Below are positions 1 to 9,410 of a stretch of 9,410 nucleotides of DNA, piece by piece. Each line of letters begins with the position of its first letter. Position 1 is the first letter of the stretch. The position numbers and the translations under genes were made by a program. The notes below the pieces were generated by a model. That model searched no databases. It worked only from the letters and a program-made list of their open reading frames with translations, and was not told the origin of the DNA. Source of the stretch: a bacterium (lineage in GTDB: Bacteria > Blakebacterota > Blakebacteria > Blakebacterales > Blakebacteraceae); contig JALGVQ010000118.1 in assembly GCA_025774615.1 (NCBI GenBank), forward strand, positions 1 to 9,410, written 5' to 3'.

Positions 1-1927
1 GCACCCTGTGGTCACGGAGATGGTAGCTACTGTTCATGAACAGCTGACGACGATTCTGGATGACTCTCCCTTCTTTACCATCGATGTCTCGCGAAACCAC
101 CTCACCATTGGGGAGATCAGTACCAGTCCTGAGCACACACTCTTCCATGCTCTGGCCCGGCGGTTCTACCGGCACCTGATCTTCAAGCTGACATTCCAGC
201 GGGGAATAGAACCGGATGAGATCGGGGATTGCATAAAGGCGATTTCGGTCAAACCAGTCAGCTCGACCGATCCTTTCGGGGCCGGCTCCGATGATCAGAT
301 CGTCAGCTCGACCGATCCTTTCGGGGCCGGCTCCGATGATCAGATCACCCGGTGGCCTCACATCGCGATCGAAGTAACCCCCTTCAGCTCACTGGCCCTC
401 GCCGAAGATGAAGACGGGGAGGCCGATCCATTTGCAAAGGGGTTGGAAGCCTACGAAGGGCTGAATCAGGCTCAGAAAGCAGGAGGGTCAGAGGCGAACG
501 AAGCGCTGAGCCAGGCTCAGAGCCAGCTCTCCGATCTCAACCTGACGAAACTGGCCGGGGTTCTGCGCAATTCAGATTCCTCTGATCCGGCTGTTCTCAA
601 TGAAGGCATCTCGAAGCTTATCCTGGGAATGAAGCCGGAGACCATGCAGGATCTGGTCAGTCGCCTTCCGGAATCTTACCGGAAGAGTGCGGCTGAAAGC
701 GCCGTCGAGGCCACGATTCGTGAAATCGTCGAAGCTGCGGATGCAGGGAACAACGACAATGCCTCGAATGCCCTGTTGCGACTGCTGACCAAACTGGCCC
801 TGCTTACTGATGACGACGGGGAACCGGTCAGTTCCGAAGATGACCAGCAGCTCGCGGCGCTCCTGCAGCGCCTGGGCGCGGGTTGGGATATCGAGAATCC
901 GAATCCGCAGGATTACGATTCAGCTCTGCGCAAATTCAACCAGACGGCGCAGCAGCTATCGAGCGATCTGGAGTGGGATGAGGAGCCGGATGCCGAACGG
1001 ATCGTGCAGATCAGTGTAGAGATCGATGAGATGGCTCCAACGACTCTGAAAGCAACAACCGACATGATCTCCTGCGGCCAGACAGGAGGATTGATGAACC
1101 TCCTGGAGGATGCCCCCACCCAGGTCGAAGCTTCCGATGCCCTATGGCTTCGGGTCGACCGGAAGGACACAGTCCACCATGTTCTGGATTACCAGCCGGT
1201 GGACTACCTGACCCTCGATCGGGTCATTACCCGTATCTGGGAGGTTGCGGCCGGGCCGATGCTCGACCGCATGCTCGACTCTGATTCCCGAACAGAGCGT
1301 ATGAGCTTGATGGAGAGACTGGAACGGCTTGGCCCTGACATCGGACCGGCCATCATGAAGCGGCTGGATGACGGACCATGGTACCGCCTGCGCAATCTGC
1401 TCAATCTGCTTGGCCGGCTACCGGTCCTGCCCGACGAATTCTCACCGTGGGACTATATCGACCACTCAGATCCCCGTGTAAGACGTGAAGCGTATGCGAT
1501 CGCGCTGGACCGGGAAGCGTATCGGGATCAGGCGATCCGTCGCGCTCTGGATGATCCCGACTCACTGGTGATCGAACTGGCCCTTGAGATTGTACAGAGC
1601 CGATGTCCGCAGGAACTCATTCCCCATCTGGTCGCGATGATTCACGATCCCACGTGTACATCCCGGATTAAAATTGCCTGTATTCGCTGTATGGGTTCGT
1701 CACGCTGCACCGAGGCCCTGGAAGCGCTCTGCGGTCTGACCTGGTGCCGGAAGTGGTTGATTCTGAACTCGCTGGCACCGAAATCCGCAACCATGCTGGC
1801 TGCGCTTGCGGTTCTCACCAAGTCGTGGCGGCACGAACCGCGCGCGATCCAGGTCCTGCGGATGGCTCTGCGATCATCTGATCCACAGATCCAGGCGGTC
1901 GTCCGCTCAACAGGTTCCGCATCGTGA
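1..1927 (+). CDS. HEAT-repeat protein with N-terminal domain shared with the downstream HD-GYP protein (5' end outside window)
   Basis: No enzymatic function is recognised. The frame is open from the window edge, and the first possible start inside is GTG at 8. The two codons before it read His-Pro, matching the Gly-His-Pro at residues 24-26 of the next gene's product. The real start is therefore probably upstream, with roughly 25-30 residues missing. Numbered from the GTG, residues 1-80 and about 114-125 align with the N-terminal domain of the next protein (for example RWPHIAI here, RFPHISF there). Residues 84-113 are an exact 15-residue repeat. Residues 130-400 are acidic, Ala/Gln/Leu-rich and probably helical. 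Residues about 415-635 look like HEAT repeats, with phrases such as WYRLRNLLNLLGRL and DHSDPRVRREAYAIAL, which suggests a protein-binding scaffold. The stop overlaps the next start (GTGA, 1924-1927), so the two genes are translationally coupled. A role as partner of the HD-GYP protein is inferred from the overlap and shared domain. Confidence 0.85.
   Translation, partial: HPVVTEMVATVHEQLTTILDDSPFFTIDVSRNHLTIGEISTSPEHTLFHALARRFYRHLIFKLTFQRGIEPDEIGDCIKAISVKPVSSTDPFGAGSDDQIVSSTDPFGAGSDDQITRWPHIAIEVTPFSSLALAEDEDGEADPFAKGLEAYEGLNQAQKAGGSEANEALSQAQSQLSDLNLTKLAGVLRNSDSSDPAVLNEGISKLILGMKPETMQDLVSRLPESYRKSAAESAVEATIREIVEAADAGNNDNASNALLRLLTKLALLTDDDGEPVSSEDDQQLAALLQRLGAGWDIENPNPQDYDSALRKFNQTAQQLSSDLEWDEEPDAERIVQISVEIDEMAPTTLKATTDMISCGQTGGLMNLLEDAPTQVEASDALWLRVDRKDTVHHVLDYQPVDYLTLDRVITRIWEVAAGPMLDRMLDSDSRTERMSLMERLERLGPDIGPAIMKRLDDGPWYRLRNLLNLLGRLPVLPDEFSPWDYIDHSDPRVRREAYAIALDREAYRDQAIRRALDDPDSLVIELALEIVQSRCPQELIPHLVAMIHDPTCTSRIKIACIRCMGSSRCTEALEALCGLTWCRKWLILNSLAPKSATMLAALAVLTKSWRHEPRAIQVLRMALRSSDPQIQAVVRSTGSAS
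257..346 (+). repeat. Exact 45-bp in-frame tandem duplication (2 copies)
   Basis: Copies at 257-301 and 302-346 are identical over 45 bases, and the identity stops exactly at both outer edges. Each encodes VSSTDPFGAGSDDQI. The duplication lies in the linker between the two conserved parts of the N-terminal domain. With one copy removed, the linker is about 21 residues, close to the 17 in the paralogous domain of the next gene. This implies a recent duplication in a length-tolerant loop. An assembly artefact is possible but would need read-level checking. Confidence 0.95.
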
Positions 1928-5132: not shown

Positions 5133-7790
5133 TCAGTCGGCTCGCAGCGCTTCCAGAGGATCGATCTTCACTGCCCGAATAGCCGGCAGCAGGCAGGCCA
5201 GCAAGGCCACCACGGCCATAGCCAGGGCCACCAGCAGATACGTCAGGGGGTCGGTCGGTTCGGTCGAGAAGAGCATTCCCCTCATCAGAGTTGCGGCCAC
5301 CCATCCACCGATGAGTCCGAGCAACAGGCCGGTTCCGGCCCAGATAGCGCCCATTCGGATCACTCTGAACATCACATGCGCTGGTCCGGCCCCCATGGCG
5401 ATCCTGATCCCCATCTCCCTGGTGCGTTGACTCACGAAGTAGGAGAGAACGCCGTAGAGACCGGTCGAGGCCAGGATGAAGGCGATAACGGAGAACACTC
5501 CAAGCAGGAGTATCTGAAAGCGGAAGCCGGCCGTTGAACTGGAGAGCCGGTCCGTCATGGTACTGGTCCCGGTGATCGGTACGTCTTCATCTGCTTCCCT
5601 GACGATCCCGCGGATCGCGGGAACCAGTGCTGTCACATCACCATCCACCCTGATCGCAAGATTGAGATTCGCCTGCGGATATTGGCGATTGGGCAGGTAG
5701 AAGGCAGGGCGGAAGGGAGCATTGAGGCCGTAATCAGGCAGGTCACCGACAACGCCGATGATCTCGAGAGGGATCCCTTCTCCCCAGGGCAATATGAGGA
5801 TCTTGCCTACCGGATTCTCCTCGGGGAAGGCCTGTTCGACGAGAGTCCTGCTCACGACGGTCACTGGTGGCGAGCCGTCCTGGTCGGTCGGTTCAAACAT
5901 GCGGCCGGCAAGGATCGGGACGCCCAGTGTCCTGAAATAACCATCTATCACGAACCGTCGTGTTGCCGGGATTCGCTCGGAGGCATCAGCCGGAGGGCGA
6001 TCGGCTCTCCATATGCCATTATACAAACCGCCGAAGAGCGGGAATCCATCGGTTGCCGAGGCATCCACGACACCAGGCAGAGCTTTGATCCGCGCCAGGA
6101 TTGCATCAAATACCTGCACCCGGGTGGCGGGATCCTGGTAAGAGAAGGCAGGGAGCTGAAGGTTCATGGTGAGAAGCCCTTCTGCATCCATTCCCGGATC
6201 GACCTGCTGTAGCCTCATGAAGCTGCGGATCAACAGGCCCGATCCGATCAGCAGCGTGAGTGACAGAGCCACCTGGGTGACAACAAGCAGACTACGGATA
6301 CGAAGACTGCGACGATCCCCGGTGCTCGTTCTGCCCTCCTTCAGAGAATCGACAAGACTTGCACGTGAACTTCGCATAGCCGGTACGATGCCAAACAGCA
6401 AGCCGGTTACTATCGCGATGACCACGGTGAACAGAAGTACCGTGGTATCGATCCCGATCGATTGCAGACGGGGGACATTGGCGGGACTGAGTGCCTTCAG
6501 GATCCGGATCCCCTGCAGGGAGAGCAGTATCCCACCCATGGTTCCAAGCATGGTGATGACCAGACTCTCGGTAAGGAGCTGTCGGATGATGGCTCCTCTC
6601 GGGGCACCAAGAGACAGCCGGACAGCGAACTCGCTTCGTCTCGATGTCACCCGGGCAAGCAGCAGTGAGGACAGATTCGCGCATGCGATGAGCAGTACCA
6701 GGGAAACAGCGCCCATGAGGAGAAGCATCGAAACTCGGATGTTTCCGAAAAACTGTGTATGAAGGTCGACCAATCTGATCCCCCAGCCACCCTTCACCTC
6801 CGGCCAGGCTTCAGATATCGTGGCTGCCAGAATATCCATTTCTGACTGCGCCTGCTGGATTGTAACACCATTGGCCAGGCGACCGATGATGAAGAAATTA
6901 TTGTTACCTCTTCCTGATTCCGAGGATCCGCCGCGCTGCATGGGAGTCCAGAGCTCCACACCGCTGGGGTAGTCGAAATCTTCCGGCATCACACCCACAA
7001 TTTCAAAGGAAGCGCCATTGATGATGATACCGGTTCCAATGACAGAAGGATCGCCACCGTATCTCCGTTGCCAGAACCCGTAACTGAGGACGCCCACATT
7101 CGGTCCCCCCAGTACTTCCTCTTCGGCGGTGAATCCTCTGCCATGGAGAGGAGCAACAGCCAGCGTGGTGAAGAGATTATGAGAGACCGTGGTCGAGATC
7201 ACCCGTTCCGGTTCGTCCCCGCCGGTGACGATGACGCCGGGACGGAACAGGAGATGGGCACCGAGTGAGGAAAAGGAACTCGACTCTTCCCGGTAGTCGA
7301 AGTAATCGAGGGCGGAAATCGAGTTTGGCCTGCCCTCGGAGGTGATGGCTTGCACCCAGATGAGTTGATCCGGCTCATCATAGGGCAGGGGGCGCAGGAC
7401 CACACCGTGCAGGGCGCTGAACATTGTGGTGACCCCGCCGATCCCTATGGAAAGGATCAGCAGGCAGATGATCGTGAATCCGGGGTGCTTGCGCATGTTG
7501 CGACCGGCCAGACGGAGATCGGTCATGACATCGGTTATATACTCTCTCCTGGCGCGGACTTTCCGCCGGCGATCCTCGATCTCCACACATTCCTTCTGAT
7601 AGTTGCTGTCATCTCCGAAGCGGCTCATGGCTTCCTCTCTGGCCTCTTCTGGCGACAGGCCTTCTTCATCCACTATCCGTTTCACGCTCATCTCCAGGTG
7701 GAAGGTCAATTCCTCGGAGACTGCCCGGTCGACATCGCTGCGACGGAGCATCAAGCGCCAGGCGCGGCGTATCCTGTTCTGCTCGGCCAT
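5133..7790 (-). CDS. ADOP/MacB-like ABC transporter permease (FtsX-type, duplicated)
   Basis: A large inner-membrane permease of the 'acidobacterial duplicated orphan permease' type. Residues 1-95 form the cytoplasmic prefix domain (charged helix with HLEMSVKRIVDEEG and AREEAMSRFGD). Hydrophobic segments lie near 105-127, 354-378, 403-425, 450-471, 500-521, 760-786, 812-836 and 849-870, giving two four-helix FtsX units. Each unit has a periplasmic MacB core-like domain (about 130-350 and 530-755). Both units carry the family's cytoplasmic phrase (RRSEFAVRLSLGAPRG 384-399; REMGIRIAMGAGPAHV 791-806), and the protein ends in IDPLEALRAD. The length of 885 suits the family. No ATP-binding subunit is nearby, typical of these orphan permeases; the substrate is unknown. 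ATG overlaps the PadR stop by one base (TGATG), so both genes are one coupled operon. Confidence 0.95.
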   Translation of the reverse strand: MAEQNRIRRAWRLMLRRSDVDRAVSEELTFHLEMSVKRIVDEEGLSPEEAREEAMSRFGDDSNYQKECVEIEDRRRKVRARREYITDVMTDLRLAGRNMRKHPGFTIICLLILSIGIGGVTTMFSALHGVVLRPLPYDEPDQLIWVQAITSEGRPNSISALDYFDYREESSSFSSLGAHLLFRPGVIVTGGDEPERVISTTVSHNLFTTLAVAPLHGRGFTAEEEVLGGPNVGVLSYGFWQRRYGGDPSVIGTGIIINGASFEIVGVMPEDFDYPSGVELWTPMQRGGSSESGRGNNNFFIIGRLANGVTIQQAQSEMDILAATISEAWPEVKGGWGIRLVDLHTQFFGNIRVSMLLLMGAVSLVLLIACANLSSLLLARVTSRRSEFAVRLSLGAPRGAIIRQLLTESLVITMLGTMGGILLSLQGIRILKALSPANVPRLQSIGIDTTVLLFTVVIAIVTGLLFGIVPAMRSSRASLVDSLKEGRTSTGDRRSLRIRSLLVVTQVALSLTLLIGSGLLIRSFMRLQQVDPGMDAEGLLTMNLQLPAFSYQDPATRVQVFDAILARIKALPGVVDASATDGFPLFGGLYNGIWRADRPPADASERIPATRRFVIDGYFRTLGVPILAGRMFEPTDQDGSPPVTVVSRTLVEQAFPEENPVGKILILPWGEGIPLEIIGVVGDLPDYGLNAPFRPAFYLPNRQYPQANLNLAIRVDGDVTALVPAIRGIVREADEDVPITGTSTMTDRLSSSTAGFRFQILLLGVFSVIAFILASTGLYGVLSYFVSQRTREMGIRIAMGAGPAHVMFRVIRMGAIWAGTGLLLGLIGGWVAATLMRGMLFSTEPTDPLTYLLVALAMAVVALLACLLPAIRAVKIDPLEALRAD

Positions 7791-8119
7791 CAGGTCGCCA
7801 ATATCCGTGCGAGTACCCGGACGTAGCGGCTCCAGGTAGTGGTCCGGGAGGTGAGTTCCAGGCGGCCTTTCTCGGTCAGCCGGTAATATTTTGCTCGACG
7901 GTTGTTCTCTGATAATCCCCAGTTCGCCTGTATGTATCCCCGGTCCTCGATACGGTAGAGCGCCGGATAGATGGCTCCCTCTTCGATGGCGATCTCACCT
8001 TCTGAAGTGTCACGGAGCCAGCAGAGGATATCCCAGCCGTGCTTCGGTCCCCAGATCAGAGCTTTCAGGATGAGCATGTCCAGTGTCCCCTGAACGAGCT
8101 CCATCGGATCCTGTTTCAT
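7790..8119 (-). CDS. PadR-family transcriptional regulator
   Basis: A small winged-helix DNA-binding repressor, usually dimeric. The 109 residues match the short PadR subgroup that precedes ADOP permeases: opening GTLDMLILKAL (11-21), GPKHGWDIL, EGAIYPALYRIEDRGYI (the recognition helix and wing region) and SENNRRAKYYRLTEKGR. The start is ATG at 8119 with AGGAGG (8124-8129) four bases upstream. A second in-frame ATG at residue 6 lacks such a site. It overlaps the permease gene by one base and very probably controls it and itself. The effector is unknown. Confidence 0.95.
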   Translation of the reverse strand: MKQDPMELVQGTLDMLILKALIWGPKHGWDILCWLRDTSEGEIAIEEGAIYPALYRIEDRGYIQANWGLSENNRRAKYYRLTEKGRLELTSRTTTWSRYVRVLARILAT

Positions 8120-8330: not shown

Positions 8331-9410
8331 ATGATGGTGATCGTGATATGTGCGCTCCTTGCGTCTGCACCCCCGGCTGGTGTCTCAGCCGATGCCACAG
8401 CCGGTATCTCAACCGGGATCGACCTGTATGTCGACCAGGAGGTCCTCTCCCTCAGCGGCCGAGTGGTGGATGCTGATGGCAGACCGGCAGTCGGGGTCAG
8501 TGTCGGCTTTGACTGGTACATGACCGATGAGAGACTGGTCGCGGATTCGGTGAGTGTTTCGGATGAGAACGGGAGCTTTTCCGGTATTCCGTTCACCGGT
8601 CGCCCGGCCGCCATCATGGCTGTTGACCGTGAGCAGCAGACCGGGGGCATGGTTGTCGTTCTGACCGCCGATGATGAGATCATCATCCAGCTCACACCAC
8701 TTGTTCCGGTACGTGGAAGAATCGTCTGTTGCTTCTTTGATGAGCGACCGGAGTACAGCTACGTCTCCATCATGGTTCCGATCCCCGGCTATCTCCCTTC
8801 GACCCTCGTCCATGAAGAGACCGGCGTGGCGGCATCGTTCCGGATACTCCTGCCGCCCGGATCGTATGACTACAACCTCTATACTCACGGTATCGAGTTC
8901 CGTCGCGAGAACGGATCATTCACCGTGAAGTCGGGAGAAGACCTCGATCTTGGAGAACTCGATTTCGGCGTGACACCGATCGCCTCCTTCTATGGGAAGT
9001 ATCCTCCCGACCTGCAGGCCACCGATGTCGAGGGGGCAGAAGCTGATATCAGTTACCGGGACTATCGAGGCCGGTGGGTGCTGGCCTACTACTTTGCGTA
9101 TACGTGAAAGGAGTGCGTTCGCAGCAGTCTGCCTGCGATGATCGACCTGTATGAGCAATACCATGACCGGCGGGATGAGTTCGCCATCGTAATCGTGCAT
9201 ACACAGCACCCCGAGGTGTCGGACCTCAAGGATCTCGAACCGCTTCTCTACGGTCCGGGCGGTATCTCCGAGCGCTATTGGAACGGCAGACGGCTACCCT
9301 TTCCGCTGGTATTCGATGGTAGCGGCCGATCGTTCGATCCGTTTGGAACTCTCGGATATTTCGAGATGCTCATCGATCCCGAAGGGAATCTTGTACGTGG
9401 TGGAGACACC
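8331..9410 (+). CDS. Predicted exported thioredoxin-fold selenoprotein (TlpA/AhpC-like, UxxC) with N-terminal carboxypeptidase-regulatory-like domain; 3' end outside window
   Basis: Likely a periplasmic or membrane-exported thiol oxidoreductase. Start: ATG with AGAGGA seven bases upstream; no earlier in-frame start exists after TAG at 8277. Residues 1-20 resemble a signal peptide (hydrophobic core, VSA cleavage), though without a basic n-region. Residues about 38-125 look like a carboxypeptidase-regulatory beta domain (LSGRVVDADGRPAVGVSV, then DENGSFSGIPF), followed by a second beta-rich part. From about 221, YGKYPPDLQATDVEG leads into the thioredoxin fold (RGRWVLAYYFAYT). TGA 9105-9107 is then read as selenocysteine 259, giving T-U-K-E-C with C262, followed by SSLPAMIDLYEQY and, near the end, GYFEMLIDPEGNLV. 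The frame stays open for 101 codons after the TGA to the window edge. The usual cis-proline position appears to be Phe344. The alternative is a nonsense mutation or sequencing error in a Cys codon, leaving a 258-residue fragment. Confidence 0.8.
9105..9107 (+). other. In-frame TGA, predicted selenocysteine codon
   Basis: This TGA sits at the first Cys position of the thioredoxin CxxC motif, three residues before C262. Homology-like sequence flanks it on both sides in the same frame, without a frameshift. The five complete genes in the window use TGA as a stop, so this is not a genome-wide reassignment. Recoding needs a local signal, and one is present just downstream. Confidence 0.78.
9119..9138 (+). 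promoter_or_regulatory. Predicted bacterial SECIS hairpin
   Basis: TCGCA (9119-9123) pairs with TGCGA (9134-9138). After a single bulged C (9133), GCA (9124-9126) pairs with TGC (9130-9132), leaving the apical loop GTC (9127-9129). The loop G is the twentieth base after the TGA, in the range expected for SelB-recognised elements. As I recall the E. coli fdhF element, bases 20-25 after its UGA are also GUCUGC, identical to this site. The hairpin lies inside the coding sequence, as bacterial SECIS elements do. Confidence 0.7.

Follow-up and report, generated by a model that had tools for sequence, protein, structure and literature searches.

An in-frame TGA very probably decoded as selenocysteine in a TlpA/ResA-type protein with a carboxypeptidase-regulatory-like domain

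Results

The selenoprotein gene and its genomic context

The DNA analysed here (the window) is a stretch of 9,410 nucleotides that corresponds to the entire contig C171. On the forward strand, a reading frame that begins at the ATG at position 8331 ends under the standard code after 258 codons, at the TGA located at 9105-9107. When this triplet is read as selenocysteine (Sec), all the 360 codons from 8331 to 9410 are open up to the end of the window, and the residue U259 lies in the sequence AYT-U-KEC, which forms a UxxC motif (U-K-E-C). A preliminary description of this DNA had claimed that the frame goes on past the TGA, and that automated annotation would call a 258-residue protein without its catalytic domain; both claims agree with our translations, in which all the stretches quoted there are present. 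The gene continues in a second contig of this genome, C92, whose start overlaps the end of the window exactly over 114 nt; this contig supplies the final 17 codons, followed by the stop codon (C92:165-167). The join is confirmed by G001, a relative of the same genus in which a single contig holds the genes in this order. The complete product has 377 amino acids, and its sole internal TGA is at residue 259.

Downstream of the selenoprotein gene, C92 includes mobA and the genes for a molybdopterin oxidoreductase of the DMSO-reductase family and a DmsB-like iron-sulfur protein/ferredoxin (L020:165-3120); the selenoprotein gene is joined to mobA by an ATGA overlap. The order mobA, molybdoenzyme, DmsB-like protein is kept in G001, where it is followed by a hydrophobic protein with no Pfam match. 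A neighbourhood conserved across the whole family was not found, and the linkage with mobA and the molybdoenzyme is restricted to the genus of the window. Since it is missing in the other phylum in which homologues occur (see below), we regard it as specific to the lineage and, with respect to function, as no more than a hint. On the other side, divergent from the selenoprotein gene, the reverse strand of the window (5133-8119) encodes a PadR-type regulator and a MacB/FtsX-type permease, and a PadR-like gene is also present upstream of the selenoprotein gene in G001. At the opposite end of the window (257-346), the gene of a HEAT-repeat protein contains two perfect in-frame tandem copies of 45 nt (VSSTDPFGAGSDDQI twice), which represent either a recent duplication or an assembly artefact.

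Domain organization of the protein

The first residues of the protein (MMVIVICALLASAPPAGVSA, 8331-8390) read as a likely signal peptide, and hydrophobic N-termini are present in most members of the family. These features suggest that the selenoprotein is exported and would act outside the cytoplasm. Residues 40-84 (8448-8582) correspond to a carboxypeptidase-regulatory-like (Ig-like) domain; the match of the window protein to PF13620 is below the cut-off (E 8e-4), and this model matches 10 of 10 family members, with a best E value of 3e-9. A TlpA/ResA-like thioredoxin domain (AhpC-TSA, PF00578) extends across the TGA, from residue 226 to 341 (9006-9353), with a score of 26.4 bits against a cut-off of 26, and it is matched in 10/10 family members as well. 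Hence the earlier claim that the thioredoxin fold resumes after the TGA holds. The best solved structure found with the family profile was the ResA chain 4nmu (E 3e-20), and in the alignment U259 falls opposite the initial Cys of the ResA motif CKPC; the second Cys of the motif is retained, as UKEC in the window protein and as UKSC in G001. An AlphaFold model obtained from three sequences shows the order strand-Sec-helix-strand around residues 249-290 with a pLDDT of 36, and was rejected as a query for fold searches for being too weak.

Selenocysteine machinery of the genome

A tRNA-Sec with the anticodon TCA was detected above the Rfam cut-off in the genome of the window, along with SelA, SelB and SelD, each above its curated cut-off. 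The preliminary description had pointed to selA, selB, selC and selD as genes to look for, and all four are present; selB and the tRNA-Sec, whose absence it had named as counter-evidence, are both there. An in-frame TGA also occurs in the SelD of this genome, in the context VTCAG-U-ASKL, and SelD is therefore a second selenoprotein. No further selenoprotein was found among the FdhA-like proteins, none of which has an internal TGA. In the phylum of the window SelD is a selenoprotein (CAG-U-ASKL) at loci L040 (G000:C273) and L043 (G003:C168), and G003 encodes another SelD as well, which lacks TGA and is part of a 741-residue frame (L039), possibly a fusion.

Conservation of the TGA and of the codons that follow it

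The search of the proteins of the phylum of the window covered four genomes and yielded one informative relative, G001 (JALGWK010000106.1); a scan of the contigs for close relatives also gave a single locus. G001 retains the TGA, the UKSC motif, the hairpin described below and the entire downstream domain. The identity between both genes is 86% after the TGA and 61% before it; dN and dS are 0.12 and 1.50 after the TGA (dN/dS about 0.08), and 0.28 and 1.34 before it, so that constraint is stronger on the stretch following the TGA, where purifying selection acts on the codons. Directly before the TGA, 32 nt of the window are missing from the assembly of G001, which breaks the frame of its gene (L006:1258-1268, contig G001:C348); given the strong constraint downstream, this shortening likely reflects a fault of the assembly or a deletion that occurred very recently.

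Among 294 genomes of a second phylum we identified full-length homologues, mostly with 24-35% identity to the window protein. Seventeen full-length loci carry exactly one in-frame TGA each, and in the alignment these triplets and that of the window share one column, which excludes chance; the Cys three residues on is invariant in the 18 Sec rows. In homologues lacking Sec this column holds Cys (L069), Ser (L061) or Arg (L065). Residue 259, the position at which the preliminary description had proposed to compare homologues, is hence TGA/Sec in 17 of them, and Cys in L069 and in ResA/TlpA. Of the 17 genomes with a Sec form, 14 have a tRNA-Sec above the cut-off and the remaining three are 70-84% complete, versus none with a tRNA-Sec among the six genomes of family f136 (99-100% complete), whose homologues are all without TGA (Fisher p = 0.0008 for 14/17 against 0/6, a value that overstates independence because the genomes are related). 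The tRNA-Sec is also present in four other genomes in which the TGA form was not detected. One locus of the second phylum, L052 (G617:C170:19448-21447), has a TGA copy and a non-TGA homologue in tandem, about 130 nt apart. The family tree gave no supported position for the window gene.

These data allow other readings of the triplet to be weighed. Were the TGA a genuine stop, or the result of a nonsense mutation, the locus would be a pseudogene or would encode a 258-residue protein devoid of the redox domain; the standard code does give 258 amino acids, and G001 carries its frame-breaking shortening at the same spot, but a pseudogene or truncated protein is very improbable in view of a dN/dS lower after the TGA than before it, of the retention of the TGA in 18 aligned genes from two phyla and of the complete Sec machinery of the genome. 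A TGC or TGT misread as TGA by a sequencing or assembly error could be suspected in a single metagenome-assembled genome (MAG) near the end of a contig; the probability of this is negligible, given that a separate MAG of the genus and 17 loci of other genomes have TGA at the same site. Decoding of the TGA as another amino acid, such as Trp after reassignment of the stop codon, would leave the frame equally open, but is just as remote, considering the tRNA-Sec, SelA and SelB in the genome, the alignment of residue 259 with a redox Cys, the absence of internal TGA in the downstream mobA and molybdenum oxidoreductase genes, and the fact that the selenoprotein gene itself stops at TGA.

A putative SECIS element downstream of the TGA

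Consistent with decoding as selenocysteine, a putative bacterial SECIS hairpin can be drawn at 9116-9140 of the forward strand, with a folding energy of -12.9 kcal/mol. Bacterial SECIS elements have been described by an apical loop of 3-9 nt with G in one of its first two positions, a stem of 4-16 bp, a spacing of 16-37 nt and a minimum free energy of -7.5 kcal/mol or lower (PMC13188914). All the values of the window hairpin fall within these limits: its loop has 3 nt (GUC, 9127-9129) with G at the first position, the spacing from the TGA to the loop is 19 nt, and the core stem (9120-9137) has 7 bp and one bulged C.

The 45 nt that follow the TGA align without gaps across 19 genes. The Ser codon of the loop is AGT in 17 of the 17 loci that encode Ser at this position, as compared with 4.9% of the other Ser codons of these genes; this count includes related genomes, and its p-value overstates independence. 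The covariation of the hairpin pairs was above that of all 500 shuffles, and the synonymous divergence between the window and G001 is 0.13 in the first 12 codons after the TGA versus 0.70 in the rest, as expected if a SECIS overlies these codons. In unconstrained folding, the stability of the region did not exceed that of shuffled sequences or of other stretches of the same genes, and for this reason the folding energy was dropped as an argument for a SECIS; the consensus folding by RNAalifold chose a different, weak helix of 3 bp instead of the hairpin. Conservation is stronger evidence for the SECIS than folding stability.

Discussion

The alignments and gene content reported here make it very probable that Sec is inserted at the TGA 9105-9107 of a gene whose product has a TlpA/ResA-type fold and belongs to the family described above. 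The preliminary description had placed Sec at the nucleophilic position, and the alignment with the first Cys, the Sec machinery and the 17 homologues with TGA bear this out. Very probably, SelA, SelB, SelC and SelD insert Sec at this codon under the direction of the putative SECIS hairpin, which lies some 20 nt further on. In the resulting protein of 377 residues, the C-terminal part is a TlpA/ResA-type thioredoxin domain with the active site Sec-Lys-Glu-Cys; before it come a likely signal peptide and one or two beta-rich domains, the first of them carboxypeptidase-regulatory-like. In the mechanism that we propose, by analogy with the thioredoxin superfamily, the selenolate of Sec would attack a disulfide of the substrate, or a peroxide, and Cys262, three residues on, would resolve the intermediate through a selenenylsulfide.

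A role as thiol-disulfide reductase is the function that we favour, with moderate confidence. A broader proposal, which we advance as speculation and regard as unlikely as a whole, is that these proteins form a distinct and unnamed exported family, a carboxypeptidase-regulatory-like domain with a Sec-containing TlpA domain, spread over two phyla, that in the genus of the window was recruited to the operon of mobA and of a DMSO-reductase-type molybdoenzyme, and may keep the periplasmic side of that respiratory system reduced.

Annotation that reads the TGA as a stop loses the catalytic half of the window protein, and the same would apply to at least 17 relatives; the family alignment is sufficient to build a model that would rescue these truncated proteins. 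In addition, the Sec trait is added to a candidate phylum (four genomes examined), in which selenium becomes linked to a molybdoenzyme operon.

ResA, TlpA and StoA are thiol-disulfide oxidoreductases involved in cytochrome c maturation and sporulation. They share their fold with the window protein and the active sites align, but the latter differs from ResA by having Sec in place of the nucleophilic Cys and by its extra N-terminal domains; as ResA proper (NCBIfam NF002854) it was rejected, with 27.7 bits against a cut-off of 170. In NCBIfam (June 2026) no model scored above its cut-off for the window protein, and its architecture is therefore uncatalogued there. The nearest model of such a selenoprotein for the family as a whole is NF041054, the ResA-like protein with the motif WAxxUGC, referred to as 'UGC-containing TlpA' in PMC13188914, which is also a TlpA-like selenoprotein but has UGC and not UxxC. 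The matches to this model are weak (best E 3.5e-5) and were obtained for five of ten family members; the window protein has UxxC and does not match it, and this assignment was also discarded.

No description of a fusion between a carboxypeptidase-regulatory domain and a Sec-containing TlpA domain was found in open-access papers. The suggestion of the preliminary description that such a fusion may be undescribed thus stands for these papers and for NCBIfam; it has to be amended in that the architecture is family-wide, non-Sec paralogues included, and not exclusive to this gene. TlpA-like selenoproteins with UxxC are themselves a known kind. TlpA-like and Prx-like UxxC proteins with Sec have been catalogued (PMC13188914, PMC9312934, PMC1088965), among them the Prx-like thiol:disulfide oxidoreductases (PF00578, UxxC) and the thiol-disulfide isomerase-like proteins (cd02966, UxxC) (PMC13188914 Table 1, PMC1088965). 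Under the convention that names subfamilies by domain and Sec motif (PMC9312934), the window protein would fall under PF00578/UxxC. It has in common with these selenoproteins the thioredoxin superfamily, Sec as the first residue of UxxC and a SECIS just downstream; in contrast to them, as far as their descriptions go, it adds a carboxypeptidase-regulatory-like domain and a middle beta domain, and is likely exported.
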